51,308 bases of DNA, from contig CAITWF010000033.1 of the NCBI GenBank assembly GCA_903896015.1, positions 1-51,308 of the forward strand, read 5' to 3'. The DNA is from an uncultured Opitutia bacterium. GTDB lineage: Bacteria; Verrucomicrobiota; Verrucomicrobiia; Opitutales; Opitutaceae. Position numbers and translations under genes: made by a program. Below, piece after piece: positions 6,974 to 30,968 of this stretch (positions are counted from its first letter, which is position 1; every line of letters begins with the position of its first letter). The notes below the pieces were generated by a model. The model did no database searches, had not been told where the DNA came from, and saw only the letters and a program-made list of their open reading frames with translations.

Positions 6974-8077
6974 TTGCCGAGCCCTCAGGCAAAAACTAAG
7001 ATCACCACGCGCACGCTCCTGCTCGCGCCGGAAATCTTTGCCTCGGAAGGCGGCATCCCCCGCATCCTACAAATTTACCTCCGCGCACTCTGCGAATTCG
7101 GCCGCCCCGGACACGCCGTCCGCCTCTTGGCGCTAAACGACTCTGCGATCGATTCCGGCGACTTGCGGCGCAACGCCCCCGGAGGCCTCGAAGATTGGTA
7201 TGTATGCGCGCGAAACAAATCCCGTTTCGTGCGCGCCGCGCTCCGCCTCAGCCGTGGCTGCGATCGACTGATTTGCGGGCACGTGGCGCAGTTGCCTGTC
7301 GCGTGGCTCGCGAAGCGCCTCAATCCCCGACTGCGCTACTATCTCGTCGCCCATGGCATCGAAGTCTGGCGACCCTTTACTCTCGCCGAGCGACTCGCGC
7401 TGCGCGGAGCGGAGAAAATTTTCTGCGTGAGCGACTATACGCGCGGAGAACTTCTGAAATACTGCCCGCTACCCGCCGGCCGCGCCGTCGTACTGCACAA
7501 CGCTCTCGCCCCCTCCTTCGAGGTGAACAGCGGCACGCCGCTGTCCACCTGCCAGCCTGTAATCCTCGTCGTCACGCGGTTGACCTACTCTGATCGCTAC
7601 AAGGGCGTGCAGCACGTGATCGAAGCAATGCCCGCGATCCGCGCCGCGATTCCCGACGCCAAACTTCGAATCGTGGGTCGTGGCGACGACCTACCTCGGC
7701 TGCAAACACTGCGCCACCAACTCGGCCTCGCCGACGCCGTCGAGTTTCTCGGCTTCGTACCCGATCGTCGCCTAACGGAAGAGTTGCGAAACTGCCGGCT
7801 CTTCGCATTGCCCAGCAAAAAGGAAGGGTTCGGCCTGGTATTTCTTGAGGCAATGGCGCACGGCCGGCCATGCCTCGGCGCCCGTGCCGGTGGCGTGCCC
7901 GAGGTCATCACACCCGAATCCGGCCTGCTCGCCGAGTATGGCGACGTGCCCGGCATCGCCGCCGCCGCGATCGCCGCGCTCCAGAACCCGTGGGACGAGT
8001 CCGCCATTCTCGCCCGCGCCCACGAGTTTTCTTATTCGCCGTTCAAGGAGCGTCTGACAAAGCTGCTCGACCTGTGA
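6974..8077 (+). CDS. GT4-type glycosyltransferase
   Basis: A 367-residue retaining glycosyltransferase with GT-B fold. The N-terminal domain contains the acceptor-side loop SEGGIPR. The C-terminal nucleotide-sugar domain starts near VILVVTRLTYSDRYKGV and carries the EX7E motif (E284 to E292, in KEGFGLVFLEAM) followed by GVPEVI. The only supported start is TTG 6974; no ATG lies before the first conserved strand (TTRTLLLAPE). It ends in a GTGA overlap with the ABC permease gene. The ILVVTRL.YSDRYKGV segment resembles mannosyl- or rhamnosyltransferases of O-antigen loci, but the sugar cannot be read from sequence. Confidence 0.9.
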   Translation: MPSPQAKTKITTRTLLLAPEIFASEGGIPRILQIYLRALCEFGRPGHAVRLLALNDSAIDSGDLRRNAPGGLEDWYVCARNKSRFVRAALRLSRGCDRLICGHVAQLPVAWLAKRLNPRLRYYLVAHGIEVWRPFTLAERLALRGAEKIFCVSDYTRGELLKYCPLPAGRAVVLHNALAPSFEVNSGTPLSTCQPVILVVTRLTYSDRYKGVQHVIEAMPAIRAAIPDAKLRIVGRGDDLPRLQTLRHQLGLADAVEFLGFVPDRRLTEELRNCRLFALPSKKEGFGLVFLEAMAHGRPCLGARAGGVPEVITPESGLLAEYGDVPGIAAAAIAALQNPWDESAILARAHEFSYSPFKERLTKLLDL

Positions 8078-8937
8078 CGCCCCCCGAATCTTCCGCACCC
8101 GAAATCGTGATCGAGCCGACTCACGGCTTTCACTTCGTCAAGTGGCGCGATCTGTACGCGTATCGCGACCTGATGTGGCTGCTCGTCTGGCGCGATTTCG
8201 CGACACGCTACAAGCAGACGATACTCGGCCCGCTCTGGCATGTTTTCCAACCGCTGCTGACCACCGTCGTCTTCGCCGTGATTTTTGGCCAGATCGCAAA
8301 ACTGCCCACCGACGATCTGCCACCGACCCTCTTCTATCTTTGCGGGCTGCTGGCCTGGAACTATTTCTCGCAAACCTTCAACTCCACCTCGTCGACACTG
8401 ATCGCCAATGCGGCGCTGTTCGGCAAAGTTTACTTTCCGCGGCTCATTGTGCCGCTCGCGAACGTCGTCTCCAACTGCTTTTCATTCGTGATCCAACTTC
8501 TGTCGTTTTTCGCGGTGCTCCTGACCTACCAGTGGGCCCACCCCGGGGCGGCCTTCGGTCCGCGCTGGGAAGCGATCGTGTTTCTACCTCTAGTGCTGCT
8601 CCAACTCGCCGCCTTCAGCCTTGGCATCGGCTTGTGGCTCGCCGCGCTGACCTCGAAGTTCCGTGACTTCGCCGTGCTCTCAGGTTTTCTCATCCAACTA
8701 TGGATGTATGTGACGCCCATCATCCTCCCGCTCACGAAAGTCCCGCCCCAATGGCACATCTATGTGGCGCTGAACCCGGTCACGATGCCCGTGGAATGTT
8801 TTCGCTACCTCCTGCTCGGCACGGGTTGGATTAATCCGACGCTCATTCTTGTTTCACTCGCAACCACCGGCGCCACCCTGGTGAGCGGGATCCTCCTCTT
8901 TCAGCGGGTAGAGAAAAGCTTTGTGGACGTTGTATGA
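8074..8937 (+). CDS. wzm: Polysaccharide ABC exporter, permease subunit (Wzm type)
   Basis: The inner-membrane half of an ABC-2 type exporter for O-antigen, capsule or teichoic-acid-like chains. From GTG 8074 it is 287 residues. The cytosolic N-terminal segment shows the family signature of an amphipathic helix and WRDFATRYKQTILGPLWHVFQPL (reported here as the block at residues 39-61), followed by about six hydrophobic segments including LPPTLFYLCGLLAWNYF and the late VTPIILPL loop. The start overlaps the stop of the preceding GT gene (GTGA), and its end overlaps the ATPase gene (ATGA). The open frame further upstream is a shadow of the GT gene. Confidence 0.95.
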   Translation: MTPPESSAPEIVIEPTHGFHFVKWRDLYAYRDLMWLLVWRDFATRYKQTILGPLWHVFQPLLTTVVFAVIFGQIAKLPTDDLPPTLFYLCGLLAWNYFSQTFNSTSSTLIANAALFGKVYFPRLIVPLANVVSNCFSFVIQLLSFFAVLLTYQWAHPGAAFGPRWEAIVFLPLVLLQLAAFSLGIGLWLAALTSKFRDFAVLSGFLIQLWMYVTPIILPLTKVPPQWHIYVALNPVTMPVECFRYLLLGTGWINPTLILVSLATTGATLVSGILLFQRVEKSFVDVV

Positions 8938-10175
8938 CGAAGCCCATCATCGAAGTTCGCAACCTTTCAAAGCGCTACCAGCTTGGTTCGATCGGCACGA
9001 CTTCGCTCCGAGAGGAATCGAGCCGGCTTTGGGATCGTCTCCGGGGCGTGCCTCATCCTGATCGCCAGGAATTTTGGGCGCTGCGTGACGTGTCGTTCGA
9101 TATACTGCCCGGTGAAGTAATTGGGCTCGTCGGCCGCAACGGCGCTGGGAAATCAACCCTGCTAAAGATCCTTTCGCGAATCACGGAGCCGACTTCCGGT
9201 CACGTCCGCCTTCGCGGGCGAGTTGCGTCGCTGCTGGAAGTTGGTACGGGATTTCATCCCGAGCTGACTGGACGCGAAAATGTCTACCTTAACGGCGCCA
9301 TCCTTGGCATGACCCGCGCCGAGGTTGCACGAAAATTCGATCAGATCGTCGCTTTTGCCGAAGTGGACCAGTTCATCGACACCCCGGTGAAACGCTACTC
9401 GAGTGGCATGTATGTGCGCCTCGCGTTTGCCGTCGCCGCGCACCTCGATCCCGAAATTCTCGTCGTCGACGAGGTCCTTGCGGTCGGCGACACCGCCTTC
9501 CAAAAAAAATGCCTCGATCGCATGCAATCGATTGCCGCAGACGAGCATCGCACCGTAATCCTCGTCTCGCACAACTTGAATGCGGTCGTCCAGCTTTGCA
9601 CCCGCGCGATCTTTTTGAACGCCGGCCGTCTCGGGGCCGTCGGCCCTCCGTCCGAGGTGATCCGGAATTATTTCGGCACACCCAACTCCGTTGAACCGAC
9701 CATCGATCTCGCTGGGCGGTCGCGCAGCGGCCATCTCCTCGCCCGCGCGCGATTCGGCTCAGTCCGCATGGTTGGCTCCGTCGATGCTCACGCCTGGAAG
9801 GTTCCTTTCGAGGACGATGTCATCCTCGAGTTTGAGCTCACTGTGCGCGAGACGGTCAAGCAGCTTGAACTGGGCACCAGTTTTTTCAATCTTCAGGGCG
9901 TGGAAATTTGCTCCAGCCTGAGCTCGTGGAGCGGGAAGATCGGCCCGACTAAACCCGGCAACTATCGCCTGACGGCGCGTTTTCCTTCGCTGCGACTGCT
10001 GCCTCGCACCTACCGGGTGGGAATCGGTCTTCGATCGGAGCGGGACATGGAGGACTACCTTGGCGAGGCGTTCGATCTCGAAATCATCAACTCGACGCGC
10101 ACGAAGCGCGAAAACCTCGCGACCGTCCATGGCGCCGTCGCCGTCGACGTGGTCACCGAACTAACCGCCCTCTAA
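8934..10175 (+). CDS. wzt: Polysaccharide ABC exporter, ATPase subunit with Wzt C-terminal domain
   Basis: The ATPase that powers Wzm, 413 residues. Walker A is GRNGAGKS (67-74), the signature is YSSGMYVRL (155-163), Walker B is ILVVDE (175-180) and the H-loop is SHN (212-214). After residue 250 or so there is an extra domain of about 150 residues, rich in beta strands (VILEFELTVRE, GNYRLTARFPSL), matching the Wzt carbohydrate-binding domain that in E. coli O8/O9a recognises the modified non-reducing end of the finished chain. A TylF-type methyltransferase gene follows directly, so a methylated end is a sensible candidate ligand. That link is inference. Confidence 0.95.
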   Translation: MTKPIIEVRNLSKRYQLGSIGTTSLREESSRLWDRLRGVPHPDRQEFWALRDVSFDILPGEVIGLVGRNGAGKSTLLKILSRITEPTSGHVRLRGRVASLLEVGTGFHPELTGRENVYLNGAILGMTRAEVARKFDQIVAFAEVDQFIDTPVKRYSSGMYVRLAFAVAAHLDPEILVVDEVLAVGDTAFQKKCLDRMQSIAADEHRTVILVSHNLNAVVQLCTRAIFLNAGRLGAVGPPSEVIRNYFGTPNSVEPTIDLAGRSRSGHLLARARFGSVRMVGSVDAHAWKVPFEDDVILEFELTVRETVKQLELGTSFFNLQGVEICSSLSSWSGKIGPTKPGNYRLTARFPSLRLLPRTYRVGIGLRSERDMEDYLGEAFDLEIINSTRTKRENLATVHGAVAVDVVTELTAL

Positions 10176-13272: not shown

Positions 13273-15059
13273 CGTCTGCCCGCACTTGTATTATGGTATC
13301 GTGTGCCGCGGGCTTGGTCGCCGGGGCTCTACTCGCTGCGGCGAGCGTAATGGGAGCTCCGCACGTCGGCTTCGATTTCTGCTATTTCTTGCCGCGTCTC
13401 ATTGATGTCTACCTGCATCAGCGAACGGAAGGTCTGTGGACAATCCAGTGGTGGACGCCTTCGTTTGGGGCCGGCCTGCCGGCATTTTTCAACCCCCAGC
13501 ACACTCAATTCATGCTCGCGCAGTGGCTGCTGCACTGGCTCGGTCCATGGCAGGCCGCGGTCGCCCAAGCGGCATTGTTCAACGCTTTCGGCTGCGCCAT
13601 GCTGGTCTGGATTTGTGCCCGCCGAATGGGTTACGGGCTTGGAGCGTCACTGTTGGCCGGAGCCACTTTTGCGACGAGTGGTTTCATGTGGGAACACACG
13701 CTCGCGGGTCACATGAGCTTCAATGTATTTCCGGTGGTCGCGATCGTGCCGGAGGCGCTGCATCGCGGCGTTTCGACCTTGCGGGCGGTGGCTTGGCTGG
13801 CGCTCGGTGTAGCGGTCATGGTGTATGGTGCCGGCTACACCGTGATTATCACGTTCGGGCTGACGTGCCTCCTGCTTGCCGGTTTGCTGCCGTGGGCCTG
13901 GCCCGAATGCTATCGCGTGTCTGACGTCACGAGGAAACTGGTCTTCGGTGCCGCCGCCGCCACTGCTACGGTCGCGATAAAAGTGAGTGCGGCGCTGCTG
14001 TTCCTTTCGTCGTTTCCCCGTCTCGTCGATTCGCACTACGATGGCCGGGGCTTTCTCGCCGTGCCCTCGCTGCTCTGGCAACTCTTTGGGCGCCGGATGT
14101 TCCTTGGCTTGGCTCTTTGGTTCCCGTTTTCCGGCGATGAACTGCAACCGCTGCTCGGTCACGGTGAGGACGTCGGCTACGGGTTGGTAACTCTCCTGAT
14201 TCTCCTGTTTGGAGCGACGCGATTCCACCGCCAGCAACTGGATTCACCTCGCCGCGAATCAAGCTGGCCTCTTGTCCTCGCCGTTGCGGGAGCGATTTGG
14301 ATCACCACGGAATTCACGCTCGGGCGCGGCCTGGTGTGGCCGATCCTAAAGCCTCTTCCTTTTTTGCGAAGCCTGAATGAAAATCACCGCCTGGCGGCAT
14401 CGTTCGCGTTGCCGCTCGCGCTGTGCGTTGCACCGTGCTGGAGCGCGTTGATCAAAGGCCGTAGCCGACTGGCGGTCCTGGCCGCCACCGTCGTCGCGAT
14501 CGTCGGCACCCTTGCATCGGTCGTTCCCTACTTTCGTGCCCGCACGACGACCTTCTGGTTCAGCTCCTATGATGTCAGCTCCATCGCCACGACTTGGAAC
14601 CGCCTCGAGGCCGCACCGGAAGAACATTTTCCAATCGAACGGGTGTCCGATCTGCGGGACGACGCAACATTTCTTGCGCACGCGAGCAGCTGGAAACCCT
14701 ACGAGCCGATCTTTGGCTACGGCTACGGCGGGTCGGAATTTCAAGCGCCCTTCCCACCGGGCGAAATCGAACGCTTGTCTCAAAATCCGGTCACTTGGAG
14801 GTTTCATGATCCCCGGCGCCTGCTCGTGCCCGGAATTGCAACCCGCGATCGCTTCGCTCCGTGGAACGGCGACGACGCGGCCGGATTGAGGCAACTGCTC
14901 GATCGTCGCCAGCCCGCCTGGACGTTGCCCACGATCATTTATGTCGGAACGGTAACTACGCTTGCGGCGATTCTTGCACTCACATTCTACATTCTCGCGA
15001 GTTCACTTCGTGCGATCAGAGAACTGTCCAAGCGTCCCTCTCTACCCGAAATCCGATGA
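13269..15059 (+). CDS. Large multi-pass membrane protein, GT-C-like, unassigned
   Basis: A 596-residue protein with many (about ten to twelve) hydrophobic segments, of no family that I can name with confidence. The N-terminal segment is a membrane anchor and is followed by a luminal loop with GFDFCYFLPRLIDVY and PSFGAGLPAFFNPQHTQF, a layout similar to YfhO/GT-C membrane glycosyltransferases, where an acidic residue in loop 1 is catalytic (GFDF here). A hydrophilic periplasmic stretch of about 100 residues (RTTTFWFSSYDVSS onwards) precedes a last transmembrane helix and a short basic tail. It overlaps both neighbours by 4 nt. A lipid-linked-sugar transferase is plausible; a polymerase-like role is the alternative. 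Confidence 0.6.
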   Translation: MTSARTCIMVSCAAGLVAGALLAAASVMGAPHVGFDFCYFLPRLIDVYLHQRTEGLWTIQWWTPSFGAGLPAFFNPQHTQFMLAQWLLHWLGPWQAAVAQAALFNAFGCAMLVWICARRMGYGLGASLLAGATFATSGFMWEHTLAGHMSFNVFPVVAIVPEALHRGVSTLRAVAWLALGVAVMVYGAGYTVIITFGLTCLLLAGLLPWAWPECYRVSDVTRKLVFGAAAATATVAIKVSAALLFLSSFPRLVDSHYDGRGFLAVPSLLWQLFGRRMFLGLALWFPFSGDELQPLLGHGEDVGYGLVTLLILLFGATRFHRQQLDSPRRESSWPLVLAVAGAIWITTEFTLGRGLVWPILKPLPFLRSLNENHRLAASFALPLALCVAPCWSALIKGRSRLAVLAATVVAIVGTLASVVPYFRARTTTFWFSSYDVSSIATTWNRLEAAPEEHFPIERVSDLRDDATFLAHASSWKPYEPIFGYGYGGSEFQAPFPPGEIERLSQNPVTWRFHDPRRLLVPGIATRDRFAPWNGDDAAGLRQLLDRRQPAWTLPTIIYVGTVTTLAAILALTFYILASSLRAIRELSKRPSLPEIR

Positions 15060-19078: not shown

Positions 19079-20716
19079 ATGAATCTCGCGACATTAACCG
19101 CCCCAAGCAAACGCCTCACCCGATGGGGCGGGTGGGCCATCGTCGCGTTGCTGCTCGGCTGGATGGTGTGGGGCGCTCTGCCATTCTCACCGGTCGAGGG
19201 CGATGAGATGGCGGTCGTCAATGGCCTCCATCTTCGGGCGAGTGGTGATCTCGCCTGGCAAAAAGGGAGCTACCTCTACACGGTTCAGCCGGGGAGCTAT
19301 TGGGTGATCATTGCGGCGTCACGGTTGGGGTCGGCGGATTTCTTCACCGCGTTTGCGCTGGTCAGCGTCGTCAGTGCGGTGGCTTTTGTCCTTCTGGCCG
19401 GGCTGTTGCTTGCGCGGGTGCAGGACATCCCGTGGCCGTGGGCGATCTGCGCGATCGTGTTGCTCGCGCAAGAAACTTCCGCTGCGGCGGCCTACGCCAA
19501 CACCAGCACTTTCGCCGGCATCGCCGCGCTGGGTGGCTTGGTGATGTTCAAGAACGGTAGCACCAGCTGGCGCGCAGCTGCCACGGGCGTCGGCCTCGGG
19601 CTCGCTGGCTGGCTGAGATTCGACGCGCTGCTGATCGCTCCGACGGTGGCGGTGCTCGCCACACCAAACGCAAAGGGGATCAGGTCGGTCGTCATCGCCA
19701 CGTTGACGGCGGTGCTCGTGCTGGCCGCCGCCTACTTGGCGAGCGGAGTGCGACTTCCCGAGATTTGGCAAACGTATGCCGCGAAGGAGGTCGATCTAGG
19801 CTATGGCGCGCTGCTGAAGAACCTGCCCTTTTTGCTTTCCTACAGTGGCATCGTGCTCGGGCTTGCCGGGGTTTGCTGGTTGATGGTCCGTCGCGAATGG
19901 CGGCTGCTCGTGCTCGTCGTAGTCGGCGTCGCGCCATCTGTCGTTGTTCATGGCCGATCAATCACCACGACCAAGTATCTCTACTATACAGTGCCCTTCC
20001 TTTTGTTGCCGGCCGTTGCGCTCGTCCGGCACATACAAATGAATCGAGTCTTAAAGCTAGGGCTCGGTTCCATGCTGCCAACAGCCGCGGTCGTCTCGCT
20101 CATTGGTCTCGAGTGGTTGATCGGGCCCCGGACCACACCGGACGAAATCCGCCGGTTGCCTGTCATCACACTCGCGGCACTCGGCTCGTGGGCGGCGCAA
20201 GGAAACACTCATGCCGTTGTCTTGGGTTCGGGCGACGCGTTCATGAATGATGACGGGCTGCGGGTTCGGGGCGGCTTGGCATTCGCGCCATTCGTCTGGC
20301 GGGCCGCGAAGGTTGGAGTGCTTTCTGCCCGAAGCCGACTCTCCGTGCTGATGCGCACACCGACTGAGTTTGTGCTGATTGCCACCTCCATGAACTCTTT
20401 CAACTGCGCCGGTGATCTGCTCTGGACCGCAGGCTACCACCCTGACCCGAAACACCAAGACCGGGCGGAAGGCTCGGGCGATTTCCAATCTTGGGTCCGA
20501 CTCGATCGTCACGTCGACCTTGGTCTCATCGTCTACGATGACCAAGCCGCTGCGATCTTTGCGCGACTCCTCGTTCAGGGAGTTCGGGCACCGGGCGCCG
20601 CCGTGTTGAACGATCGCGGCTTCGTTCTCGCACGTGATGTTTGGCCAGCCAGCTCAAGCTGGCCGCGACCCGATTACACGCCGCTCGGTTTCATGAACCT
20701 TTTCGAACGTCCGTGA
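19079..20716 (+). CDS. Multi-pass membrane protein, GT-C glycosyltransferase-like
   Basis: A 545-residue membrane protein with about ten hydrophobic segments. After the first membrane helix the outer loop carries SPVEGDEMAVVNGL (about 36-50), fitting the catalytic acidic motif in loop 1 of GT-C glycosyltransferases (dolichyl/undecaprenyl-phosphate sugar dependent), then YTVQPGSYWVI. The last about 170 residues are hydrophilic and probably periplasmic. The family is not recognised with certainty; ArnT-like or PMT-like enzymes are the closest class by layout. It ends in a GTGA overlap with the GT4. It would add a side-chain sugar on the outer face of the membrane (inferred). Confidence 0.65.
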   Translation: MNLATLTAPSKRLTRWGGWAIVALLLGWMVWGALPFSPVEGDEMAVVNGLHLRASGDLAWQKGSYLYTVQPGSYWVIIAASRLGSADFFTAFALVSVVSAVAFVLLAGLLLARVQDIPWPWAICAIVLLAQETSAAAAYANTSTFAGIAALGGLVMFKNGSTSWRAAATGVGLGLAGWLRFDALLIAPTVAVLATPNAKGIRSVVIATLTAVLVLAAAYLASGVRLPEIWQTYAAKEVDLGYGALLKNLPFLLSYSGIVLGLAGVCWLMVRREWRLLVLVVVGVAPSVVVHGRSITTTKYLYYTVPFLLLPAVALVRHIQMNRVLKLGLGSMLPTAAVVSLIGLEWLIGPRTTPDEIRRLPVITLAALGSWAAQGNTHAVVLGSGDAFMNDDGLRVRGGLAFAPFVWRAAKVGVLSARSRLSVLMRTPTEFVLIATSMNSFNCAGDLLWTAGYHPDPKHQDRAEGSGDFQSWVRLDRHVDLGLIVYDDQAAAIFARLLVQGVRAPGAAVLNDRGFVLARDVWPASSSWPRPDYTPLGFMNLFERP

Positions 20717-21897: not shown

Positions 21898-21975
21898 CAC
21901 CGATCGCCATGCCAACTCACCGCATTCAGCGGCCGCTTGCGGCCAATCGCCGTTCACGTGTCCCCTCGCAGCGCC

Positions 21976-23001
21976 ATGCAGCCTGATCTATCGATCATCA
22001 TTCCCGTCTACAATCGCGGTGACCTGATCCGTTATACACTCGAGAGCATCACCCGGGCGTCGGACGGCCTGAACGTTGAAACGATCATCGTTGATGACGG
22101 CTCGACCACCCCGGTGGCGGATTCTCTGGCGCGAATCGGCTTCTCGCCGTCCCAACTGTTTCGGCAGGAAAACCAAGGGCTTCTTTTTGCCCGCCTCGCG
22201 GGGCTCACGCTGGTGACAGGACGCCACGTCCTGTTTTTGGACTCGGACGATCTCGTGAGCACAGAGAAATTCCGCCTGCAGCTGGCCGCCATGACTGCGA
22301 CGGGCGCAGACATCAGTTACAGCGACACCGCTCGCTGCGAGGTCGCCGGTGACTTTTCGGCCCTGCAATATTTACCGGATCCGCCGACATTCGACACGAC
22401 CGACGGAGCCGAGTTTTGCATTGTCGTCCAGCCGGTGCCGCATTCGCCGATCTTTCGCACGGACTGGCTGCAACGCGCCGTCGACGCCGCTTTTTTTCCC
22501 GCGGACAAGCTCTACAACAGTGTCGCCGAAATTTGGTTTTATCACAATGCGGCGATCCAGCCCGGCCGGAGCGTGCGGGTGCCCGGCCCGCACACGATCA
22601 TCGGCTCCCATCCTGGAGTCCGACTGACCAACAACTGGGAACGCCTCGGCGTCGCCTCCCTCGCGGTCATGGAGGCGTTTGCGCGCGCTTGTCCGAGGAC
22701 GACTGAAACCGTCCGCGTCCGCGCATTGGTCGGTGAAGTCGCTTTTCGATCATGGCGCCGGCTGCCCCGGGATTTTTCCGCGGAGTTCGGTGGGCGCCTG
22801 CTCAAGCTGTGGCGCGAACTTGCCGCCGGGCACCGATCGCCGTCCCTCGGCGGATCTCTCTTTCGCGCCGCTTCCACCTTGGTCGGGGCCGAAAACGCCG
22901 GCCACCTGTTTCGCCGCCTGCAAGCGCAGCCCTACGAGCAATGCCGCACCATGGACGATGCGGCCTTCGGACGATTGCTCCGCGCACTCCCGGCACCATG
23001 A
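21976..23001 (+). CDS. GT2-type glycosyltransferase
   Basis: A 341-residue GT-A enzyme: LSIIIPVYNRGDLI (5-18), ETIIVDDGST (36-45), NQGLLFARLAGL (about 66-77) and the metal-binding FLDSDD (about 87-92). It uses ATG 21976; a TTG 39 bp earlier is possible but has no support. The C-terminal 120 residues are helix-rich with many Arg and Trp and match no part I know. It lies 78 bp after the GT4, and its stop overlaps the next gene's ATG. Confidence 0.9.
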   Translation: MQPDLSIIIPVYNRGDLIRYTLESITRASDGLNVETIIVDDGSTTPVADSLARIGFSPSQLFRQENQGLLFARLAGLTLVTGRHVLFLDSDDLVSTEKFRLQLAAMTATGADISYSDTARCEVAGDFSALQYLPDPPTFDTTDGAEFCIVVQPVPHSPIFRTDWLQRAVDAAFFPADKLYNSVAEIWFYHNAAIQPGRSVRVPGPHTIIGSHPGVRLTNNWERLGVASLAVMEAFARACPRTTETVRVRALVGEVAFRSWRRLPRDFSAEFGGRLLKLWRELAAGHRSPSLGGSLFRAASTLVGAENAGHLFRRLQAQPYEQCRTMDDAAFGRLLRALPAP

Positions 23002-23984
23002 ACACTCTGGTCAAAGCAATGCGACGGGCTGCCAGCGCCCTTGGTTTTGGGCGGCTCATGTATGTTCTCTGGCACGCGCCCCGCGCAGCCATCGCCCGCT
23101 CCATTCGTGCGGGCGGGCCAATCGAACAATGGAACGATTCGCGCGGTCGCGCCGCCATGCAAACTGCGGCCGCAAACCTGCCCCCGTGTCCGGCCGCACC
23201 GGCGAAAGCCGTGGAAGTCTGCTTTCTTACCGGAAAGAAATTCTGGTATCAGACCGCGTGTTGCTGCTGGACGCTGCGCCAGCACGCCAACTTTGATTTG
23301 CGGCCGGTCTTCATCGACGACGGCACGTTCGACGAAGACTTGATCGCGGAGTCCGCGCGAGTTTTTCCCGGCTCGGTTGTTCTTCGCCAAGATGAAATTG
23401 AGCGCCGGCTCGAAGCCTGCCTGCCGGAAGCGAGGTTCCCCGCTTTGCGTGGACAGCGACGGAGCTACGTTCACCTGCGCAAGATCACCGACGCTCACGC
23501 GGGTCATCGCGGCTGGCGGCTTGTCCTCGACTCCGACATGCTTTTTTTCCGACCGCCAACCGAACTGCTCCAATGGCTCGCTGCTCCCGACCGGCCAGTG
23601 CACATGATGGACGTGCACGATGCCTATGGTTATCCCTCGGCCACCCTCGAAGCGCTCACCGGCCACCCACCACCCATGCACTTGAATGTCGGAGTTTGCG
23701 GACTGCAGAGCGACGCGCTCGATTGGGATCAACTTGAATCGTGGTGCGCAGCCCTATTGCGCCAGCATGGTTCCAGTTACTACCTTGAGCAGGCTCTGGT
23801 AGCCATGCTGCTCAGTGCCAGCGAGCCGCTTCGCCTGCCACAAAAAGACTACCTCCTGATGCCGAGTGAAGCCGAATGCCGTGCGCCAACCGCCGTGCTG
23901 CACCACTATGTAGATCAATCCAAGCGCGGCTATTTTCGCTATGGCTGGCGCCGTGCCCTCGGGCCTATCACCACTAGATCCTGA
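22998..23984 (+). CDS. Unassigned GT-A-like glycosyltransferase with DSD motif
   Basis: A 328-residue protein. The part from residue 70 reads as a GT-A fold: VCFLTGKKFWYQTACCCWTL, RPVFIDDGTFDED, then WRLVLDSDMLFFRPP (about 176-190) with the metal-binding D-S-D, and PMHLNVGVCGLQSDA (about 228) plus SYYLEQALVAMLLSA, the positions where GT8-like enzymes have NSGV and DQ. The exact family is not certain. The first 60 residues are basic (KAMRRAASALGFGRL). The start ATG overlaps the GT2 stop (ATGA). It shares the LDSDML block with the next gene but little else. Confidence 0.7.
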   Translation: MNTLVKAMRRAASALGFGRLMYVLWHAPRAAIARSIRAGGPIEQWNDSRGRAAMQTAAANLPPCPAAPAKAVEVCFLTGKKFWYQTACCCWTLRQHANFDLRPVFIDDGTFDEDLIAESARVFPGSVVLRQDEIERRLEACLPEARFPALRGQRRSYVHLRKITDAHAGHRGWRLVLDSDMLFFRPPTELLQWLAAPDRPVHMMDVHDAYGYPSATLEALTGHPPPMHLNVGVCGLQSDALDWDQLESWCAALLRQHGSSYYLEQALVAMLLSASEPLRLPQKDYLLMPSEAECRAPTAVLHHYVDQSKRGYFRYGWRRALGPITTRS

Positions 23985-24014
23985 GCGAGCCAGTAAGGCC
24001 GTCCACCCTCGATC

Positions 24015-24983
24015 ATGAGCAATCGATCTCCCGTATCGCTCCACATCAGTCTTGCCCCACGCGACCTGCGGCACGCGCGAGCGATCCTGCCCCATCAACT
24101 GCGGCAAATCGGCGGCAGTGTGGAGGAGATTGTCTGCACGATTGACACTCTCGGGCGTCCGCCCGCCGAACTCGGCGATGAGTTCGCCGAGTTGGCCGCC
24201 CTGGCGGAGCAATTGTCCGCCGCTGCCCCTTTGCATATCGTACGGGTCGTCGACTATTCACCGGCCCGGCGCGCAACCCTCAGCCGCCAGTTTTTTCGCA
24301 GCGGATCGATCCCCCGACAAACCTATCGGGTCGGTCCCTTTCACGCCTACTTCGATGGCTGGCTGGCGACCACCCGGCCCTACATCTTTCATCTCGATTC
24401 GGACATGCTCATCGGTGGATCGGCCGCCGGCTGGATCGAAGAAGCGATCTCGCTGCTCAGCGCGGACGCATCCGTGTTCACCTGCACGCCGCTGGCGGGG
24501 CCGCCACGCGATGATTTCTGCCTCGCCCAACCCGCCCGCCAACTCGCAACGCCCCGCGGCGCACACGCCCTTGCTGGGATGAGTACGCGGATTTTTTTTC
24601 TCGACCGCGATCGGCTGCTCCAGCCCCAGCCCAAACTGCCGCTGAGCCGGGCTACGTTGCGCGGACAACTCCGCGGTTGGGTCGAGCGCACTTCCCCTTA
24701 CGCCTTGCCGGAAGACATCATCAGTTCGCACATGCAGCGCCTCGGCCAACATCGGGTTGACTTTCTCGGCCGAGCCCCGGGCTGCTGGTCACTGCATCCT
24801 CCGTTTCGAAACACCGAATTCTATCGGCGCCTCGATGAAATTGTCCACCGGGTCGAAACTGGGGATTTGCCAGATGCGCAACGCGGAGACTACGACTTGA
24901 ACGAAAGCGTAATCGATTGGTCCGACGCGAGAGCGGCGATCGCCGGGAACCGCTGGTGGCGGCGCCTGTGGAAAAGTCGATGA
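24015..24983 (+). CDS. Unassigned GT-A-like protein with DSD motif
   Basis: A 322-residue protein. After SLHISLAPRDLRHARAILP it reads EEIVCTIDT (a GT-A second strand) and then GPFHAYFDGWLATTRPYIF directly before HLDSDMLIGG (about 123-132), the metal-binding motif. Next come VFTCTPLAGPP, MSTRIFFLDRDRL (acceptor-side strand) and LPEDIISSHMQRLG. I do not know a family name. The same LDSDML block lies in the preceding gene, so both may be nucleotide-sugar enzymes acting in turn on the same chain. It starts at ATG 24015, 30 bp after its neighbour. Confidence 0.65.
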   Translation: MSNRSPVSLHISLAPRDLRHARAILPHQLRQIGGSVEEIVCTIDTLGRPPAELGDEFAELAALAEQLSAAAPLHIVRVVDYSPARRATLSRQFFRSGSIPRQTYRVGPFHAYFDGWLATTRPYIFHLDSDMLIGGSAAGWIEEAISLLSADASVFTCTPLAGPPRDDFCLAQPARQLATPRGAHALAGMSTRIFFLDRDRLLQPQPKLPLSRATLRGQLRGWVERTSPYALPEDIISSHMQRLGQHRVDFLGRAPGCWSLHPPFRNTEFYRRLDEIVHRVETGDLPDAQRGDYDLNESVIDWSDARAAIAGNRWWRRLWKSR

Positions 24984-25101
24984 AGCCGTCGCGACCCAAA
25001 CGCATCTGCTCTTCAGCAAGCCGCGCCGCACATCGGAGCGGGTTCCGATCCACGGGTAGCCCGGAGCATCGCCCGATCCCTTGTTTGTTGCACCGAACAC
25101 C

Positions 25102-26058
25102 GTGATAACCGATCCGCTAGTCAGCATCCTGATACCATGCTACAACGCCGGGCCCTGGCTCCGGCAGACGCTGGATTCGGCGATCGCTCAAACCTGGCCG
25201 CACCGCGAGATAATCCTCGTGGATGACGGCTCGAACGATGGCAGTCTCTCGATTGCCCGGGAATTTGAGCAGCGCGGTGTCCAGATTCTCACCCAAAAAA
25301 ATGCCGGGGCCAGCGCCGCGCGCAACCGCGCACTCCGCGCCGCGCACGGGGAGTTCATCCAATTCCTTGATGCTGACGATCTGCTGTCAGCCGAGAAGAT
25401 AGCCGCGCAACTCGCCGAACTCGCCGCACGCCCAGCCGGCACCATCGCGTCCTGCGCCTGGGGGCGCTTTCAGGGCAGCCCAGCGAACACCCAGTTCGTC
25501 GACGACTCTGTCTTTCGCGACTTCACTCCGACGGAATTTCTGACGGCAGCCGCCGAGACCGGTGTCATGATGCATCCGTCCGCGTGGCTCGTGCCGCGTG
25601 CGGTGGCAGAGCGCGCCGGCCCCTGGGACGAGACGCTCTCATTGAACGACGATGGAGAATATTTTTGCCGCGTGCTGCTGGCCGGCTCCGGAGTGGGCTT
25701 TTGTCGCGACTCCCGCGCCCGCAGTTTCTACCGGTCCGGCGTGCCCGGCAGTTTGAGCTGCCAAAAAAGCGAGCGGGCGCGTCGATCCCAGTTTCGATCC
25801 TTGGAATTCATCGCGCAACACCTTCTCGCGGCTCAAGACACGCCTCAAGTCCGACGCGCGCTCGGGCACCAGTGGCAGCGCTTCGTCCACGACTATTTTC
25901 CAGCGCCAGTGGACTTGATGCGGCGCGCCGAGGCGCGCGCCGCCGCGCTCGGCGCCGGCGCGCTCGGGCCGCCACCCATGGGTCCAAAAACCGCCGCACT
26001 CTCCCGGCTCATCGGCTGGCGGAACACATGGCGGCTAAAATACCTGCTCCGCCTTTGA
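25102..26058 (+). CDS. GT2-type glycosyltransferase
   Basis: A 318-residue GT-A enzyme from GTG 25102 (an upstream TTG at 25081 would add seven residues). Motifs: VSILIPCYNAGPWL (6-19), EIILVDDGSNDGS (about 36-48), KNAGASAARNRALR (about 66-79), FLDADD (about 90-95) and LNDDGEYFCRVLLAG (about 176-190, the catalytic-base region). There is a gap of 118 bp before it in which I see nothing. The tail is basic and hydrophobic (WRNTWRLKYLLRL). Its end overlaps the next gene. Confidence 0.92.
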   Translation: MITDPLVSILIPCYNAGPWLRQTLDSAIAQTWPHREIILVDDGSNDGSLSIAREFEQRGVQILTQKNAGASAARNRALRAAHGEFIQFLDADDLLSAEKIAAQLAELAARPAGTIASCAWGRFQGSPANTQFVDDSVFRDFTPTEFLTAAAETGVMMHPSAWLVPRAVAERAGPWDETLSLNDDGEYFCRVLLAGSGVGFCRDSRARSFYRSGVPGSLSCQKSERARRSQFRSLEFIAQHLLAAQDTPQVRRALGHQWQRFVHDYFPAPVDLMRRAEARAAALGAGALGPPPMGPKTAALSRLIGWRNTWRLKYLLRL

Positions 26059-27290
26059 GCCGAAAAAAAATTCTTGTCCTGAGTGCGCTGCATTTGTGCC
26101 GCAATCCACGTGTCGTCAAAGAAGCGACGACGCTGGGACAGGCCGGCTATGAAGTGACAGTCATGACCGTCTCAAGTTCCGCGCGCTTCGAGCGCATGGA
26201 CCGCGAGCTCGCGCGCGACTTGCCGTTCCGCCGCATCACGCTCGATCTCGTTGGCCCTGCCATGGCGACGCGCCTGCGTAGTTTCCTCTCCCGGGGTGGC
26301 ACGTGGCTCGCCCGCGCCGCACTCGAATATCTGAGCCTCGAATCCCCTCAGGCGCTCGGCCCGGCGTATGGCTTGCTCGCGATGGCGCGCGGTCATCCCG
26401 CCGATCTCACGATCGTGCACACGGAGATTCCAATCTGGGCCGCGCGCTCGCTGATTCGGGGCGGGCGCCGGGTCGCAGTCGATATCGAGGATTGGTATTC
26501 GGAGGACTTGCTTTACGCCGATCGCCTCAGTCGGCCGCTGCGCCTGCTGCGAAACGTCGAGGACTTCGTGCTCAATCACGCCGTTTACGCCTCTGCTACG
26601 TCGGACAGCATGGCCACCGCGCTGGCCGATCGCTATCACTGCCCGAAACCGATCGTGATTCAGAACACGTTTCCGCTGCAACCCCGCACGCGGCTGGACC
26701 GGCCGATAGGCGAAGAATCGCGCGCCTTCATTTGGTTTTCGCAGACGGTCGGACCCGGTCGCGGCCTTGAATTGTTTTTGTCGGCTTGGAACCGAACCGC
26801 GATTCCCAGCCGCGTCGTCCTGCTCGGAGATGTACGTTCCGGCTACCGCGAACAGTTGCTCGCCAGCGTCGCCGCCGATCGACGCGAGCGGATTATTTTC
26901 TTGCCGCTGGTCCCTCCGGATCAGTTGCCCGATCAACTGGCCACCTTCGATCTCGGTCTCGCCCTTGAGTCGCACTGGCCGCTAAATCGAGACATCACGA
27001 TAACCAACAAAATCCTTCAATATATGAACGCCGGCCTGGCACTGATCGCGACCGACACTGCCGGCCAGACCGAAGTCATACGCGCCGCGCCCGCGAGCGG
27101 CCTGCTGGTCGCCGCGCATGAAACGACCCAACTCGCGAAGGCTCTCGATGCCCTCCTCGCCGACCGCGATCGATTGCGTAACTGCCAGCGCGCTTCGCGC
27201 GCTGCCGCAGAGTCCCGATTCTCATGGGAGTTTGACGCTGAGGTGCTGCTCGCCGCAGTCGCCCGAGCGCTCGCAACCCGCGGCTCTTAA
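26028..27290 (+). CDS. GT4-like glycosyltransferase without the usual EX7E motif
   Basis: A 420-residue GT-B protein. It begins MAAKIPAPPLSRKKILVLS; the ATG at 26028 overlaps the previous gene by 31 bp, while TTG 26055 would give a TTGA overlap and start at LSRKKI. Domain 1 shows RNPRVVKEATTLGQAGYEVTV and VAVDIEDWYSEDLLY, a DIED-type loop. Domain 2 has IWFSQTVGPGRGLELF and TITNKILQYMNAGLALIATDTAGQTEV, which takes the place of the EX7E region, as seen in some N-acetylhexosamine-type GT4 relatives. The donor is unknown. It is followed 1 bp later by the PIG-L gene. Confidence 0.85.
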   Translation: MAAKIPAPPLSRKKILVLSALHLCRNPRVVKEATTLGQAGYEVTVMTVSSSARFERMDRELARDLPFRRITLDLVGPAMATRLRSFLSRGGTWLARAALEYLSLESPQALGPAYGLLAMARGHPADLTIVHTEIPIWAARSLIRGGRRVAVDIEDWYSEDLLYADRLSRPLRLLRNVEDFVLNHAVYASATSDSMATALADRYHCPKPIVIQNTFPLQPRTRLDRPIGEESRAFIWFSQTVGPGRGLELFLSAWNRTAIPSRVVLLGDVRSGYREQLLASVAADRRERIIFLPLVPPDQLPDQLATFDLGLALESHWPLNRDITITNKILQYMNAGLALIATDTAGQTEVIRAAPASGLLVAAHETTQLAKALDALLADRDRLRNCQRASRAAAESRFSWEFDAEVLLAAVARALATRGS

Positions 27291-27291
27291 G

Positions 27292-28149
27292 ATGCCCTCG
27301 TCCGCTCGAAAATTTCCTCCCCCTCCGCGGCCCCCTCATTCCCGGTTGCGCCAGCCCAAGGAGTTCGTACGGATGCTCATGAGCCAGCTGTGCCAACTCG
27401 CTCTCCGCTTCGCGAGCCGCCCCTACGTCGCCCGCTCCGGATCGACCCTCGTCTTTGCTCCACACCCCGATGACGAGACCCTCGGGTGCGGCGCACTGAT
27501 CGCCCGAAAGCGCAACGGCGGACACGCCGTCCACGTCGTATTCTTCACTGATGGGGCCGCGTCGCACCCGTCGCACCCGCGCGTCACCGCATCAGAAATC
27601 GCCGCCATTCGCGCCCAAGAGGCGCGCCGTGTGCTCGCCATCCTCGGCGTCGATTCGACCGCAATTCATTTTTTAAACGAAGCCGACGGCACACTTAATC
27701 GCCTCAATTCCGCCAGCCGCGTCGCGCTAGTCGCTCGCACAACGGCGTTGCTGGACACACTGCAACCCGCCGAAATATTCCTTCCGTCTCATGCCGACGG
27801 CAGCAGCGAGCACGAAGCCGCGTTCCATTTCGTCGCGGAGGCCGTTGCACGCTCACAGCGCGACGCCGCCATCTGGGAGTATCCCGTGTGGCTTTGGTGG
27901 AATCCACTCACTTTGCTCGCACAGATCGTAAAGACCACTGGACGCTACCGCGTGCCGACCGAGGATTTTCTCGATGTGAAACGCCACGCGCTCTTCCGCT
28001 ACCGCTCGCAGCTCGCACCGCTGCCACCGCAGTCCGAACCCGCGCTCCCGCGCGACTTGCTGCGCCTCATCGACACGGAGGCCGAATATTTTTTCCACTC
28101 TACGCTGCTTGAAGCGCGGCCGTCGGGCAGCGCACGGCCCGTCATCTAG
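27292..28149 (+). CDS. PIG-L/LmbE family N-deacetylase
   Basis: A 285-residue zinc-dependent deacetylase of the PIG-L (LmbE) family, which removes acetyl from GlcNAc groups of small molecules or lipid-linked sugars. Seen: FAPHPDDETLGCGALIARK with H58, D60, D61 (zinc and catalytic Asp), the FFTDGAASH loop and the late HADGSSEHEAAFHF with H167, D169 and H174. The first 30 residues are Pro/Arg-rich. It stands between two GT4-type genes; its likely job is to convert an N-acetylamino sugar into a free amine on the growing glycan, giving positive charge or a site for further acylation. That is inferred from family and place. Confidence 0.92.
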   Translation: MPSSARKFPPPPRPPHSRLRQPKEFVRMLMSQLCQLALRFASRPYVARSGSTLVFAPHPDDETLGCGALIARKRNGGHAVHVVFFTDGAASHPSHPRVTASEIAAIRAQEARRVLAILGVDSTAIHFLNEADGTLNRLNSASRVALVARTTALLDTLQPAEIFLPSHADGSSEHEAAFHFVAEAVARSQRDAAIWEYPVWLWWNPLTLLAQIVKTTGRYRVPTEDFLDVKRHALFRYRSQLAPLPPQSEPALPRDLLRLIDTEAEYFFHSTLLEARPSGSARPVI

Positions 28150-28158
28150 CCCCTTCGG

Positions 28159-29481
28159 ATGAAACGCGTCCTCATCGTTAGTCCGCACTTCCCACCGATC
28201 AATTCCCCCGACCACCAGCGGGTGCGTATGAGCCTGCCCTACTATCGCGCCTGTGGTTGGGAGCCCATCGTGCTGTGCGTGACGGACGACCAAGTCGATG
28301 GCGTCCGGGAGCCCGAACTTGAACGCACGATCCCCGGAGAGATAAAAATTTTTCGCGCCGGCGCGCTGCCCCTGCGTTGGCTGCGCCAACTCGGCGTGCG
28401 CAACATCGGCTTGCGCTGCTGGCTGCATTTCTTTTTCGCCGGCGCACGGCTCATCCGCCGCGAAAAAATCGATCTCGTGTTCTTCTCTAACACCCAGTTC
28501 GTCACCTTCCCCCTCGGCCGGTTGTGGCGCGCATGGCTCGGCACGCCCTATGTCTTCGACATGCAGGATCCATGGCGAACTGACTACTACGAACGTGCCG
28601 GATCGCGGCGCCCGCCAGGCGGCTGGAAGTACCAACTCGCCCGATTCATGGCTTGGCTATTGGAGGGCTGGTCATTTCACCGGGTAGCCGCCGTGATGAG
28701 CGTCTCCCCTAGCTACCTTGATGACTTGCGTAGGCGCTATGCGAACTTTGCCAGCGTACCTACCGCCGTGATCGGTTTCGGCGCGACGCGCAACGACATC
28801 ACGATTGCTCGCGCGCTACCATCGCCCTCGGTGCGGTACGAGAGGCAGCGCGGCGAAATCCACCTGCTCTATACCGGTGCTTCCGGACCCGTCATGCCGC
28901 ACTCACTCACCGTCTTGTTCGACGGACTGCGGCTGTATCGGGAAAAAAATCCCGAAGGTGCCCGCCGGTTGCGCTTCCACTTTTTCGGCACAAGCTACGT
29001 GGCATCCGGCCAAGGTAGAAACTCCGTCGTCCCTGTCGCCGAAGCTTGCGGCGTGGCCGATCAAGTCGACGAGATTCCGCACCGACTCGGACACCTCGAA
29101 TGCATTCGCTTGCAACTGGAGGCCGACATCCTGCTCCTGCCGGGGTCTAGTGATCTCGCCTACTCGCCCTCGAAAATTTATCCCTATTTTCTGACCGACC
29201 GTCCAATTCTCGCCGTGGTCTTTCGCGGAAGCGTGCTCGAGCGACTCGTGCAGGAACTGTCCTGTGCGTTCACGGTGGCCACAACCGAACACGGCCCAAA
29301 GGCGGAAGCACACGCTGCGCTCGCCAAGTTTTTCGATCTCGTCCTCGCCGGGCTTCCGGCCGGCTCGCTGCCTAAGCGCGATCAGTCTTATTTCGCGAAA
29401 CATTTTCTCGCTGAAAGTCTGACGCGCGCGCAAGCCGCGTTATTTGATCGCGCGTTGGAGCACGAAGTTCAGTCCGCATGA
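28159..29481 (+). CDS. GT4-like glycosyltransferase (divergent)
   Basis: A 440-residue GT-B protein. The opening MKRVLIVSPHFPPINSPDHQ has the loop seen in many GT4 acceptor domains; VFDMQDPWRTDYY (about 132-145) is the conserved D...W region of the DP(W) GT4 subset; and the second domain has HLLYTGASGPVMP and YSPSKIYPYFLTDRPILAVV, in place of EX7E. No signal or membrane anchor is seen apart from LHFFFAG. Start ATG, 9 bp after the deacetylase. It is longer than its GT4 neighbours. The ATGA overlap with the next gene fixes its end. Confidence 0.82.
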   Translation: MKRVLIVSPHFPPINSPDHQRVRMSLPYYRACGWEPIVLCVTDDQVDGVREPELERTIPGEIKIFRAGALPLRWLRQLGVRNIGLRCWLHFFFAGARLIRREKIDLVFFSNTQFVTFPLGRLWRAWLGTPYVFDMQDPWRTDYYERAGSRRPPGGWKYQLARFMAWLLEGWSFHRVAAVMSVSPSYLDDLRRRYANFASVPTAVIGFGATRNDITIARALPSPSVRYERQRGEIHLLYTGASGPVMPHSLTVLFDGLRLYREKNPEGARRLRFHFFGTSYVASGQGRNSVVPVAEACGVADQVDEIPHRLGHLECIRLQLEADILLLPGSSDLAYSPSKIYPYFLTDRPILAVVFRGSVLERLVQELSCAFTVATTEHGPKAEAHAALAKFFDLVLAGLPAGSLPKRDQSYFAKHFLAESLTRAQAALFDRALEHEVQSA

Positions 29482-30968
29482 AAGAATTTCCCGAAGAACC
29501 GTCCGTCGAGCCTTCGCTCGCGCCCGCTCCAATCCCGTCCGGCTTGGGCAAGGTTAGCACCGGCCCGATCGGCGATCGGTCCGGCCCAAACAAACTTTAC
29601 ACCTATGGCCTGGCAGGCGCTGCCGCGGTCATCGTCTATTATGCGCTAAGCGCCAAGGTCGATGATCCGCTCCACCTCTACCTTGGCTTGCTGATCATCG
29701 TGGGCTCCTTTTATCCCGCCCTGCAGTGGGCCCGGAGAAAGGACGATCGCTTTCCAGTGTTTGAAGTGCTGATGCTCACTTGCCTCAATACTTACGCGGT
29801 GCCGCTCCTCGGCGGCCACCGCGATCTCGGCGCCTATCCGGATGAGACGATCACCGAAGCCGCACTCGGCGTGCTGCTCTACCAAGCCGTCGCGATCGGT
29901 GTCTACTCGCTAACGCGCGCCCGACCCAAGACCACGCCGGCTTGGACGCAGGAAGTGATCAGCCGCGATATCATCAACTATCTCGCACTCGGGATGATTA
30001 TCACGACGGCCTATACGATCATCAGTCTGCTGACCGACTGGATTCCGTCCGACCTCAACGGCCCGCTCCGCGCGGTGTGCTATGGCGTGGGTATCATCAG
30101 CACGTTCATCCAGGCCCGCTTGTGGGGTCAGGGCACGTTTCCACGCACCCGCAAGGCCGCGTTTGTTTTCCAACTAGCACTCCAAGTCATTTTTAGCTGG
30201 GCCGCCTTGTTCCTGATCGGTGGCATCTCGATTCTCGTGCTCGCGCTGCTCGGGTATGTCTCTGGCGGAAAGAAGCTACCTACGCTAGCGCTAGCGATCG
30301 CGCTTCCGATTCTTGGCGTGTTGCACAACGGCAAGAGCCAGATGCGCGAAAAATATTGGGAGGGTGGCGCACCCTCTCCCACTCTGACAACGCTCCCCGC
30401 ATTCTACCAAGAGTGGATCGGCTACGGTCTCCAGGGCGAAAATGCCGATGACGCCACGAAGCCACGCCACGCGAGCAAACTCCTCGAGCGTACCTCGCTC
30501 TTTCACATGATGTGCCTCGTCGTCGACTGCACGCCGTCGCGGCAACCGTTCCTTGAAGGCCTGACCTACTCTTACGTGCCAGGGCAATTTGTCCCGAGCT
30601 TCTTCTGGAAGGGGAAACCGCCCGCCCACGTGGCGACGAACCGCCTCTCGGTCTATTACGGGCTGCAACACGAGGAAGACACCGTGAAGACCACCATCGC
30701 GTTTGGCATGCTGACCGAGGCCTATGCGAACTTCGGATTTTTCGGTATCGCCCTGCTCGGCGCGGCGTTCGGATTTTGGTTAAAGCGACTCGGCGATTGG
30801 GCCACCCATAGTCCCATTTTGTCCTATCCCGGCCTCCTGCTCGTCGTGCTCATGGCATGGTCGTTTCAGAGCGAGCTCACGTTCGCCGCCTGGATCAGCT
30901 CGCTCTATCAAGCGTGCATGGCGGTGCTCGGTGTCCCTTTCCTGATGCGCAACTTCCTCGGCCAATGA
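29478..30968 (+). CDS. Multi-pass membrane protein, O-antigen polymerase-like (Wzy type)
   Basis: A 496-residue membrane protein with about ten hydrophobic segments. The first 40 residues are Pro/Glu-rich and hydrophilic. A large outer loop lies between HNGKSQMREKYW and FGMLTEAYANFGFFGI, with Arg/Lys-rich phrases EGLTYSYVPGQFVPSFFWKGK and RLSVYYGL, a layout like the periplasmic loop of Wzy polymerases; TEAYANFGFFG is a shape often seen in the repeat-unit polymerase group. It starts ATG in an ATGA overlap. Polymerase is the best call, but membrane proteins of this class diverge fast. It sits in the middle of the island with GT4 genes on both sides. Confidence 0.62.
   Translation: MKEFPEEPSVEPSLAPAPIPSGLGKVSTGPIGDRSGPNKLYTYGLAGAAAVIVYYALSAKVDDPLHLYLGLLIIVGSFYPALQWARRKDDRFPVFEVLMLTCLNTYAVPLLGGHRDLGAYPDETITEAALGVLLYQAVAIGVYSLTRARPKTTPAWTQEVISRDIINYLALGMIITTAYTIISLLTDWIPSDLNGPLRAVCYGVGIISTFIQARLWGQGTFPRTRKAAFVFQLALQVIFSWAALFLIGGISILVLALLGYVSGGKKLPTLALAIALPILGVLHNGKSQMREKYWEGGAPSPTLTTLPAFYQEWIGYGLQGENADDATKPRHASKLLERTSLFHMMCLVVDCTPSRQPFLEGLTYSYVPGQFVPSFFWKGKPPAHVATNRLSVYYGLQHEEDTVKTTIAFGMLTEAYANFGFFGIALLGAAFGFWLKRLGDWATHSPILSYPGLLLVVLMAWSFQSELTFAAWISSLYQACMAVLGVPFLMRNFLGQ

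Follow-up and report, generated by a model that had tools for sequence, protein, structure and literature searches.

What do two adjacent open reading frames (ORFs) encode when their products share a six-residue block, LDSDML, and does this block tie them to each other? The question is raised by a stretch of DNA from an uncultured Opitutia bacterium of the family Opitutaceae (Verrucomicrobiota; assembly GCA_903896015.1, contig CAITWF010000033.1, positions 1 to 51,308), which was analysed at its full length of 51,308 nucleotides and is called the window hereafter. Gene A (22998..23984, + strand) encodes a protein of 328 amino acids and gene B (24015..24983, + strand) one of 322; the end of A and the start of B are separated by 30 bases on the same strand. 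The block lies within the stretch WRLVLDSDMLFF of A (D178, D180) and the stretch YIFHLDSDMLIG of B (D128, D130), and the DxD codons occupy 23529..23537 (+) for D178-S179-D180 and 24396..24404 (+) for D128-S129-D130. A sequence-only reading had reported both ORFs, each with LDSDML, and had quoted the motifs NSGV and DQ for A. Its observation is partly confirmed: the ORFs, their coordinates and the LDSDML motifs are real, while at the other two positions A has NVGV and EQ (some of its distant relatives do have NSG). We are fairly confident that the two genes encode GT-A glycosyltransferases (GTs) unrelated to each other, that A is a probably alpha-retaining member of the GT8 clan, and that both lie in one exporter-bearing surface-polysaccharide cluster.

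Relationship of protein A to the GT8 clan

Family models do not recognise A directly. The window's A has no Pfam match at E ≤ 10, and the curated cut-off of PF01501 (GT8) is thus not reached; neither has it an NCBIfam match, nor is any NCBIfam match consistent across A relatives. PDB sequence searches with A returned no match, and searches with the A alignment returned nothing or chance matches only. Relatives of A were taken from a scan of named genomes in which 189 stretches matched the search pattern and 149 encode an A relative; the best 80 were kept and are referred to as the 80 named A loci. The resulting alignment of 87 rows consists of the window's A, the A proteins of 79 of these loci and 7 second copies (L117, whose open frame ran far upstream, was excluded). 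PF01501 is listed at E ≤ 1 for 5 of the 87 proteins (best 1.2e-4) and PF03407 for 4 (best 0.059); for the other 82, the window's included, no PF01501 is listed at this threshold, and HMMER filters drop many weak matches.

The 87 A proteins and a set of 30 PF01501 stretches from Verrucomicrobial genomes align in hhalign with a probability of 92.5 over 226 columns, and in the reverse direction with 87.4 over 227 columns, although a probability from a single profile pair is rough. The 11 other profiles compared with A, namely B and ten GT2/GT4/GT9 neighbour families, reach at most 31.1. The window's own genome had no PF01501 match in the phylum scan used to collect the GT8 proteins. In the A/GT8 pairing, LDSD corresponds to LDxD, N230xG232 to NxG, E264-Q265 to DQ, and H303 and K309 to the His and the Lys of the KPW stretch. 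It is worth noting that D178, D180, N230, G232, Q265 and H303 are invariant in all 87 A proteins and that the Glu ahead of Q265 (E264) is kept in 86, whereas K309 is Lys in 78 and Arg in 7. The KPW motif itself is not kept, as Pro follows K309 in 8 of the 87 and the window has KRG. The role of the DxD, the metal-binding C-terminal His of LgtC and the phosphate-binding Lys of KPW (a clade 9 feature) are described in PMC7185993.

The structural model of A, built from the 87 rows, has a mean predicted local distance difference test score (pLDDT) of 96.5 and a predicted template modelling score (pTM) of 0.91. Among the 50 Foldseek matches listed for this model are glycogenins (best E 8.3e-8), LARGE1, BoGT6a (a bacterial blood-group-type transferase), xyloside xylosyltransferase 1 and UGGT. 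Pairwise VIA-align comparisons with the predicted model gave Z 16.6 for WbbM 6u4b (root-mean-square deviation (rmsd) 3.7, 234 aligned, WbbM residues 277-570), 16.4 for LARGE1 7ui7 (rmsd 3.8, 230 aligned), 16.1 for LgtC 1g9r (rmsd 3.5, 217 aligned), 16.1 for GlyE 5gvw (rmsd 3.5, 209 aligned) and 15.5 for UGGT 7zle (rmsd 3.6, 230 aligned). WbbM, LARGE1, LgtC and GlyE tie within 1 Z, and the matches cover model residues 68-328. The GT8 likeness that had been proposed for A is strengthened by the full-length profile match, the fold matches, the motif pairing and the weak PF01501 matches taken together.

Because the fold, the profile pairing and the conserved site residues with published roles all match GT8, A most likely acts as a metal-dependent, retaining GT-A transferase that works like a GT8 enzyme, as judged from its sequence and predicted structure. 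One may ask whether A is then simply an ordinary CAZy GT8 enzyme that the Pfam GT8 model misses, with nothing new about it. The full-length profile match, the LgtC-type fold, the motif-by-motif correspondence and the five weak PF01501 matches all agree with this, but the model leaves the other 82 A proteins, including the window's, unlisted at E ≤ 1, the full KPW and the DQD are not kept, and the N-terminal helices are distinct. We thus regard this explanation as rather unlikely. In view of its extra helical N-terminal part (about residues 1-66) and the absence of a full KPW, we call A divergent, and it probably represents a divergent, retaining, GT8-like family within the GT8 clan.

As a separate observation, two diverged A copies are present in 7 of the 80 named loci (L064, L065, L077, L087, L099, L106 and L119), where they are neighbours in several.

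Protein B as a probable divergent GT-A enzyme

Family models do not recognise B either. The window's B has no Pfam match at E ≤ 10, and the cut-off of the GT2 model is thus not reached; its only NCBIfam match is a chance one (E 0.15), with nothing consistent across B relatives. PDB sequence searches gave two chance matches for B and nothing more than chance with the B alignment. PF00535 (GT2) is found below its cut-off of 23.3 bits in five of seven B-family proteins, the best at 4.3e-4 (20.7 bits) and 1e-3 (19.5 bits), and is listed for two of five proteins in a set overlapping these seven (best 0.001). The model of B, built from 8 sequences, has a mean pLDDT of 86.2. In VIA-align its closest structure is POMGnT1 (Z 14.8, rmsd 3.4, 202 aligned), followed by GnT-I (14.2), MGAT2 (13.9), GalNAc-T2 of GT27 (13.9), B4GALNT1 (13.8) and COLGALT1 (13.3); cellulose synthase 5ej1 reaches Z 13.0 and hyaluronan synthases 12.4-12.7. 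The 50 rows listed span Z 12.4-14.8 with identities of 8-16 percent.

Among 12 distinct B rows, D44, H126, D128, D130, S190, R192, E233 and H261 are kept in all. The xED motif was placed at E233 by the alignment and by the helix start in the model; its Asp is not conserved, and therefore both an inverting and a retaining mechanism are possible. From sequence and model, B may be described as a GT-A enzyme that is loosely GT2-like, leaning weakly to GT2. Could B rather be a retaining enzyme of GT27 type? H261 and E233 are kept and the Asp after E233 is not, and a GT27 structure is among the top VIA-align rows (Z 13.9); PMC7185993 mentions a variable xED Asp in retaining enzymes and a metal-binding C-terminal His (C-His) in GT27. 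The same source gives DxH for GT27, whereas all 12 B rows have DxD, and GT13 and GT16 structures rank as high as the GT27 one. A GT27-like B is accordingly unlikely.

A B-like domain is also seen outside a stand-alone protein: a 1902-residue ORF in genome G376 (L134:6445-12150, - strand) combines GT2, epimerase, B-like (about residues 1109-1402) and radical S-adenosylmethionine (radical-SAM) parts.

It could further be imagined that one or both proteins are catalytically dead scaffold subunits, as no assay is known. However, the active-site columns do not vary among the 87 A and 12 B proteins, which come from several phyla; this invariance argues for retained catalysis in both, and dead scaffolds are therefore very improbable.

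The shared LDSDML block

In both proteins the block lies on the constrained DxD strand, and LDSD is found outside the pair as well, since the GT2 protein encoded directly upstream of A reads VLFLDSDDL. Among 29 window proteins compared, 8 of the 406 pairs, the A-B pair included, share a 6-mer, and when A was shuffled 5000 times, 53 of the shuffled sequences had a 6-mer in common with B. A 6-mer in common is thus uncommon but not rare. Of the 87 A proteins 46 have LDSDML at this place, as against only 3 of the 12 distinct B proteins (those of the window, L060 and L063); the other B proteins have MDSDML, ADADIF, FDADVL, YDADML, CDADMM and similar. BLASTP between A and B gives a best E of 0.15. 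In hhalign the two match at 43.5 percent over 37 columns, around the DxD only, and with larger alignments, in which the B profile contains one duplicate row (the window's B twice), at 23.6 percent, compared with 22.7 and 31.1 for A against the GT2 neighbour families 1 and 9.

We read LDSDML as the generic metal-binding GT-A DxD motif, and nothing else in the sequences appears to connect A to B. The block was considered as a sign of common descent and rejected, given the short DxD-only profile match and the variation of the hexamer among B relatives. That A and B arose by duplication, recently or long ago, and form one new family is barely credible: both carry LDSDML at the GT-A DxD position, the local hhalign match exists, and Foldseek for B lists LARGE1 and the GT8 structure 3tzt lower down, but the match is confined to the DxD strand and resembles that of A with GT2 neighbour profiles once the alignments are larger, the top fold neighbours differ (GT8/GT24-type for A; GT13/GT16/GT27/GT12/GT25/GT2-type for B), and the hexamer is variable.

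The sequence-only interpretation is therefore partly supported. It was right about the GT-A fold of both proteins, which structure prediction and fold comparison bear out, and about the GT8 likeness of A. The two proteins are otherwise unlike each other, as it said (BLASTP and the 37-column match at the DxD), and the profile comparison agrees that they are unlike the surrounding GT2 and GT4 proteins. It was wrong about what the hexamer means: a link between the two proteins is not supported, in the light of the 37-column match, the hexamer variation and the frequency expected by chance.

Glycan cluster, distribution and comparison with known systems

The genes around A and B suggest a large surface-polysaccharide cluster, of O-antigen or exopolysaccharide type, with a Wzm/Wzt-type exporter. 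Gene A begins inside the end of the GT2 gene upstream of it (neighbour family 9, 21937..23001, +): start and stop codon share the sequence ATGA (22998-23001), an overlap that suggests translational coupling. Downstream follow a GT2 gene (family 1, 25081..26058, +), a GT4 gene (family 2, 26025..27290, +; start chosen by us, open frame from 25584), a PIG-L family deacetylase gene (family 14, 27385..28149, +; start chosen by us, open frame from 27118), a GT4-like gene (family 4, 28159..29481, +) and a gene whose product matches Wzy polymerase weakly, below the cut-off (family 5, 29478..30968, +). The same cluster has an ATP-binding cassette (ABC) exporter, consisting of an ABC-2 type permease (Wzm-like, 7870..8937, +) and an ABC ATPase with a Wzt C-terminal domain (8934..10175, +), as well as a Wzy_C protein (34901-36604); its other genes encode GT2, GT4, GT9 and GT61 proteins, acyltransferases and methyltransferases. 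Since the Wzm/Wzt exporter occurs alongside weakly Wzy-like and Wzy_C proteins, the route of glycan export is ambiguous. Upstream of the exporter genes is an asparagine-synthase-like protein (family 22, 5000-6958), which perhaps serves an amidated sugar; this family is near A in 13 of the 80 named loci. Two large proteins appear hydrophobic by eye, one at 13269-15059 (no Pfam match at E ≤ 0.001) and one at 19079-20716 (no Pfam match at E ≤ 10).

Several of these neighbours recur. Family 1 (GT2) is found in 73 of the 80 named A loci, and in 51 it is the counted gene directly after the last A (4 loci end before any further counted gene). Family 3 (GT2) is found in 67, family 2 (GT4) in 64 and family 4 in 55, and Wzt-type and Wzm-type genes in 36 and 28, respectively. 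The loci were fetched by the presence of A, and the constancy of A in the cluster is not deducible from these counts. Loci from Cyanobacteriota (for example L093 and L078), Pseudomonadota (L120), Sumerlaeota (L085) and Verrucomicrobiota share the gene order 3, A, 1, 2, 4, interrupted in places by other genes. Long antisense ORFs recur opposite conserved GT genes. They are probably artefacts of codon usage by which gene-calling programs could be misled; as such, the antisense neighbour groups 27 and 31-35 do not enter the counts.

B is within the flanks (up to 10 kb on each side) of at least 7 of the 80 named A loci (L060, L063, L079, L090, L097, L098 and L108), and such counts are lower bounds because many loci end at contig ends. 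The neighbour tally considers only + strand genes with a score of at least 100; hence it counts B in 6 loci, the minus-strand B of L108 falling outside. Only in three clusters (the window, L060 and L063) is B the gene immediately after A, and in L090 it is the one immediately before; it is also present in the regions of G005, G024, G049 and G344. Weak matches of the B profile in L050, L053 and L061 (E 2.7e-4 to 8.3e-4) were taken as GT2 cross-matches and not as B. A shared pathway of the two is plausible, as B occurs close to A in 7 of the 80 named loci and immediately after it in three clusters. The sequence-only proposal that they work in sequence has their common strand, their common cluster and the recurrent co-clustering in its favour and the small number of clusters with B immediately after A against it; consecutive action is thus no more than conjectural.

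At the genome level A is more frequent than B. A is present in 30 of 95 related genomes and in at least 27 of 387 genomes of the phylum (distant, weak matches among them), and B in 4 and at least 6, respectively; the window's own genome is included throughout, and the counts among the 387 may be low, because in most of the genomes listed no more than 5 candidates each were scored. All 4 B genomes among the 95 relatives have A, and the two occur together in 4 genomes of the phylum sample. When the window's genome is left out, 386 genomes remain, 26 with A and 5 with B, and 3 of these 5 also have A (P = 0.0025, hypergeometric test, which ignores relatedness, takes the A and B draws of the 387 genomes as identical and would give a weaker result within the family). 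Against a pairing of the two, B-like genes in G376 and on a Methylosinus plasmid are found with no A in the DNA examined, and G201 has B alone. By submitter title, 63 of the 87 aligned A rows are from Verrucomicrobiota, 13 from Cyanobacteriota (including Nostoc, Calothrix and Lyngbya), 7 from Pseudomonadota and 2 from Sumerlaeota, and 2, including the window's, are ungrouped. A quick tree of A unites the cyanobacterial rows in a single group (support 90); for the Pseudomonadota rows it requires 4 changes, 2 of which are forced by well-supported branches. Transfer of A between phyla is suggested by this tree, and no more than suggested because the titles of metagenome bins may be wrong.

Mobile elements were searched as well. 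A had no match in the plasmid or the phage collection, and a Nostoc A relative used as a query had one partial match (Gloeothece). B matched one Methylosinus plasmid in the plasmid collection and nothing in the phage collection, and no relative of B was found among viral contigs. Of two other B relatives used as queries, one returned the same Methylosinus record and the other no match. Our literature search found no paper combining Opitutaceae, glycosyltransferase and exopolysaccharide and no link of the cyanobacterial A copies to a named, characterised gene, and in the portions of the texts accessible to us no description of A or B was recognised.

How might the two proteins act? In A, D178, D180 and H303 would bind metal and nucleotide-sugar, K309 would bind the diphosphate, and N230/G232 and E264-Q265 would line the sugar site. 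A could then add one alpha-linked sugar, perhaps galactose or glucose by analogy with WbbM, to the growing glycan in the cytoplasm, and this may be a core step. In B, D128xD130 and H261 would serve the metal, and E233 would start the helix where inverting enzymes carry the base; by analogy, B may add a further sugar in some versions of the glycan of A. What the data show directly are the ORFs, their motifs and conservation, the predicted folds and the recurring neighbours; retention, donors, acceptors and the order of action are all conditional in this scheme, as is the activity itself.

Several observations weigh against the reading of A and B as two unrelated GT-A transferases, one of the GT8 clan, in one surface-polysaccharide cluster. 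No member of the A or the B family clearly reaches a named family by sequence. In a second, partly different set of 33 A proteins, PF01501 is found in none, PF00535 in one at 0.003 and PF03407 in one at 0.058. A has Glu before the Gln where most GT8 proteins have Asp, it is without the PW of KPW, and the fold matches hardly reach its first ~66 residues, which form three helices in the model. As for B, PF00535 is found in none of 8 proteins of another set, one of which has PF13704 at 0.031; its profile reaches at most 18.4 in hhalign against GT2 neighbour families; and the xED Asp is D in only 3 of the 12 rows, the window among them. Most A loci examined are without B, which is therefore not a fixed partner of A, and in G201 a comparable cluster contains B and lacks A. 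To our knowledge no close relative has been assayed enzymatically.

On balance we consider it a genuine, if moderate, finding that A represents a widespread GT8-clan family, unnamed as judged against Pfam and NCBIfam, and B a rarer GT-A protein. The proposal of two new GT-A families has in its favour that Pfam and NCBIfam recognise neither protein, and is weakened by A being a GT8-clan relative and B leaning weakly to GT2. A bolder version is possible, if doubtful: A would found a GT8-clan family of its own, responsible for the signature linkage of a single conserved ABC-exported surface glycan in Verrucomicrobiota, Cyanobacteriota, Pseudomonadota and Sumerlaeota, and B would be a second new GT-A family carrying out the next step in some lineages. 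Pfam and NCBIfam do not recognise A, yet the cluster gene order around it recurs in four phyla, and A may serve as a marker for this cluster type. With A placed in the GT8 clan and its catalytic residues intact, genes that had no annotation become candidate alpha-glycosyltransferases open to test.

Compared with known systems, A is closest to CAZy GT8 (LgtC, the WbbM C-terminal domain, LARGE1, glycogenin and GlyE). It shares with them the fold (Z 13.9-16.6), the DxD, the NxG, the Gln starting the next helix, the C-terminal His and the Lys six residues later, but differs from them in that EQ replaces DQD, the KPW is incomplete, helices are added at the N-terminus and the GT8 family model misses most of the sequences. 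The catalytic domain of UGGT (GT24) has a similar fold (Z up to 15.5), but A keeps the C-terminal His where GT24 has Asp, according to PMC7185993. B has the GT-A fold in common with GT13, GT16, GT27 and GT2 (POMGnT1, GnT-I, MGAT2, GalNAc-T2, cellulose and hyaluronan synthases), but its identity with them is 8-16 percent, no Pfam model exceeds its cut-off and the xED Asp is variable; moreover, B has the C-His, which GT13 is without (PMC7185993). The cluster resembles Klebsiella-type ABC-transporter-dependent O-polysaccharide clusters in its Wzm/Wzt pair, the Wzt C-terminal domain and the many GTs, and differs from them by its additional Wzy-like, Wzy_C and asparagine-synthase-like proteins. The Klebsiella O2a polymerase WbbM has two GT modules (PMC11231755), the C-terminal one being a GT8 UDP-Galp transferase (PMC12269835), and, like the setting suggested for A, WbbM acts in an ABC-transporter-dependent O-antigen pathway (PMC11231755).

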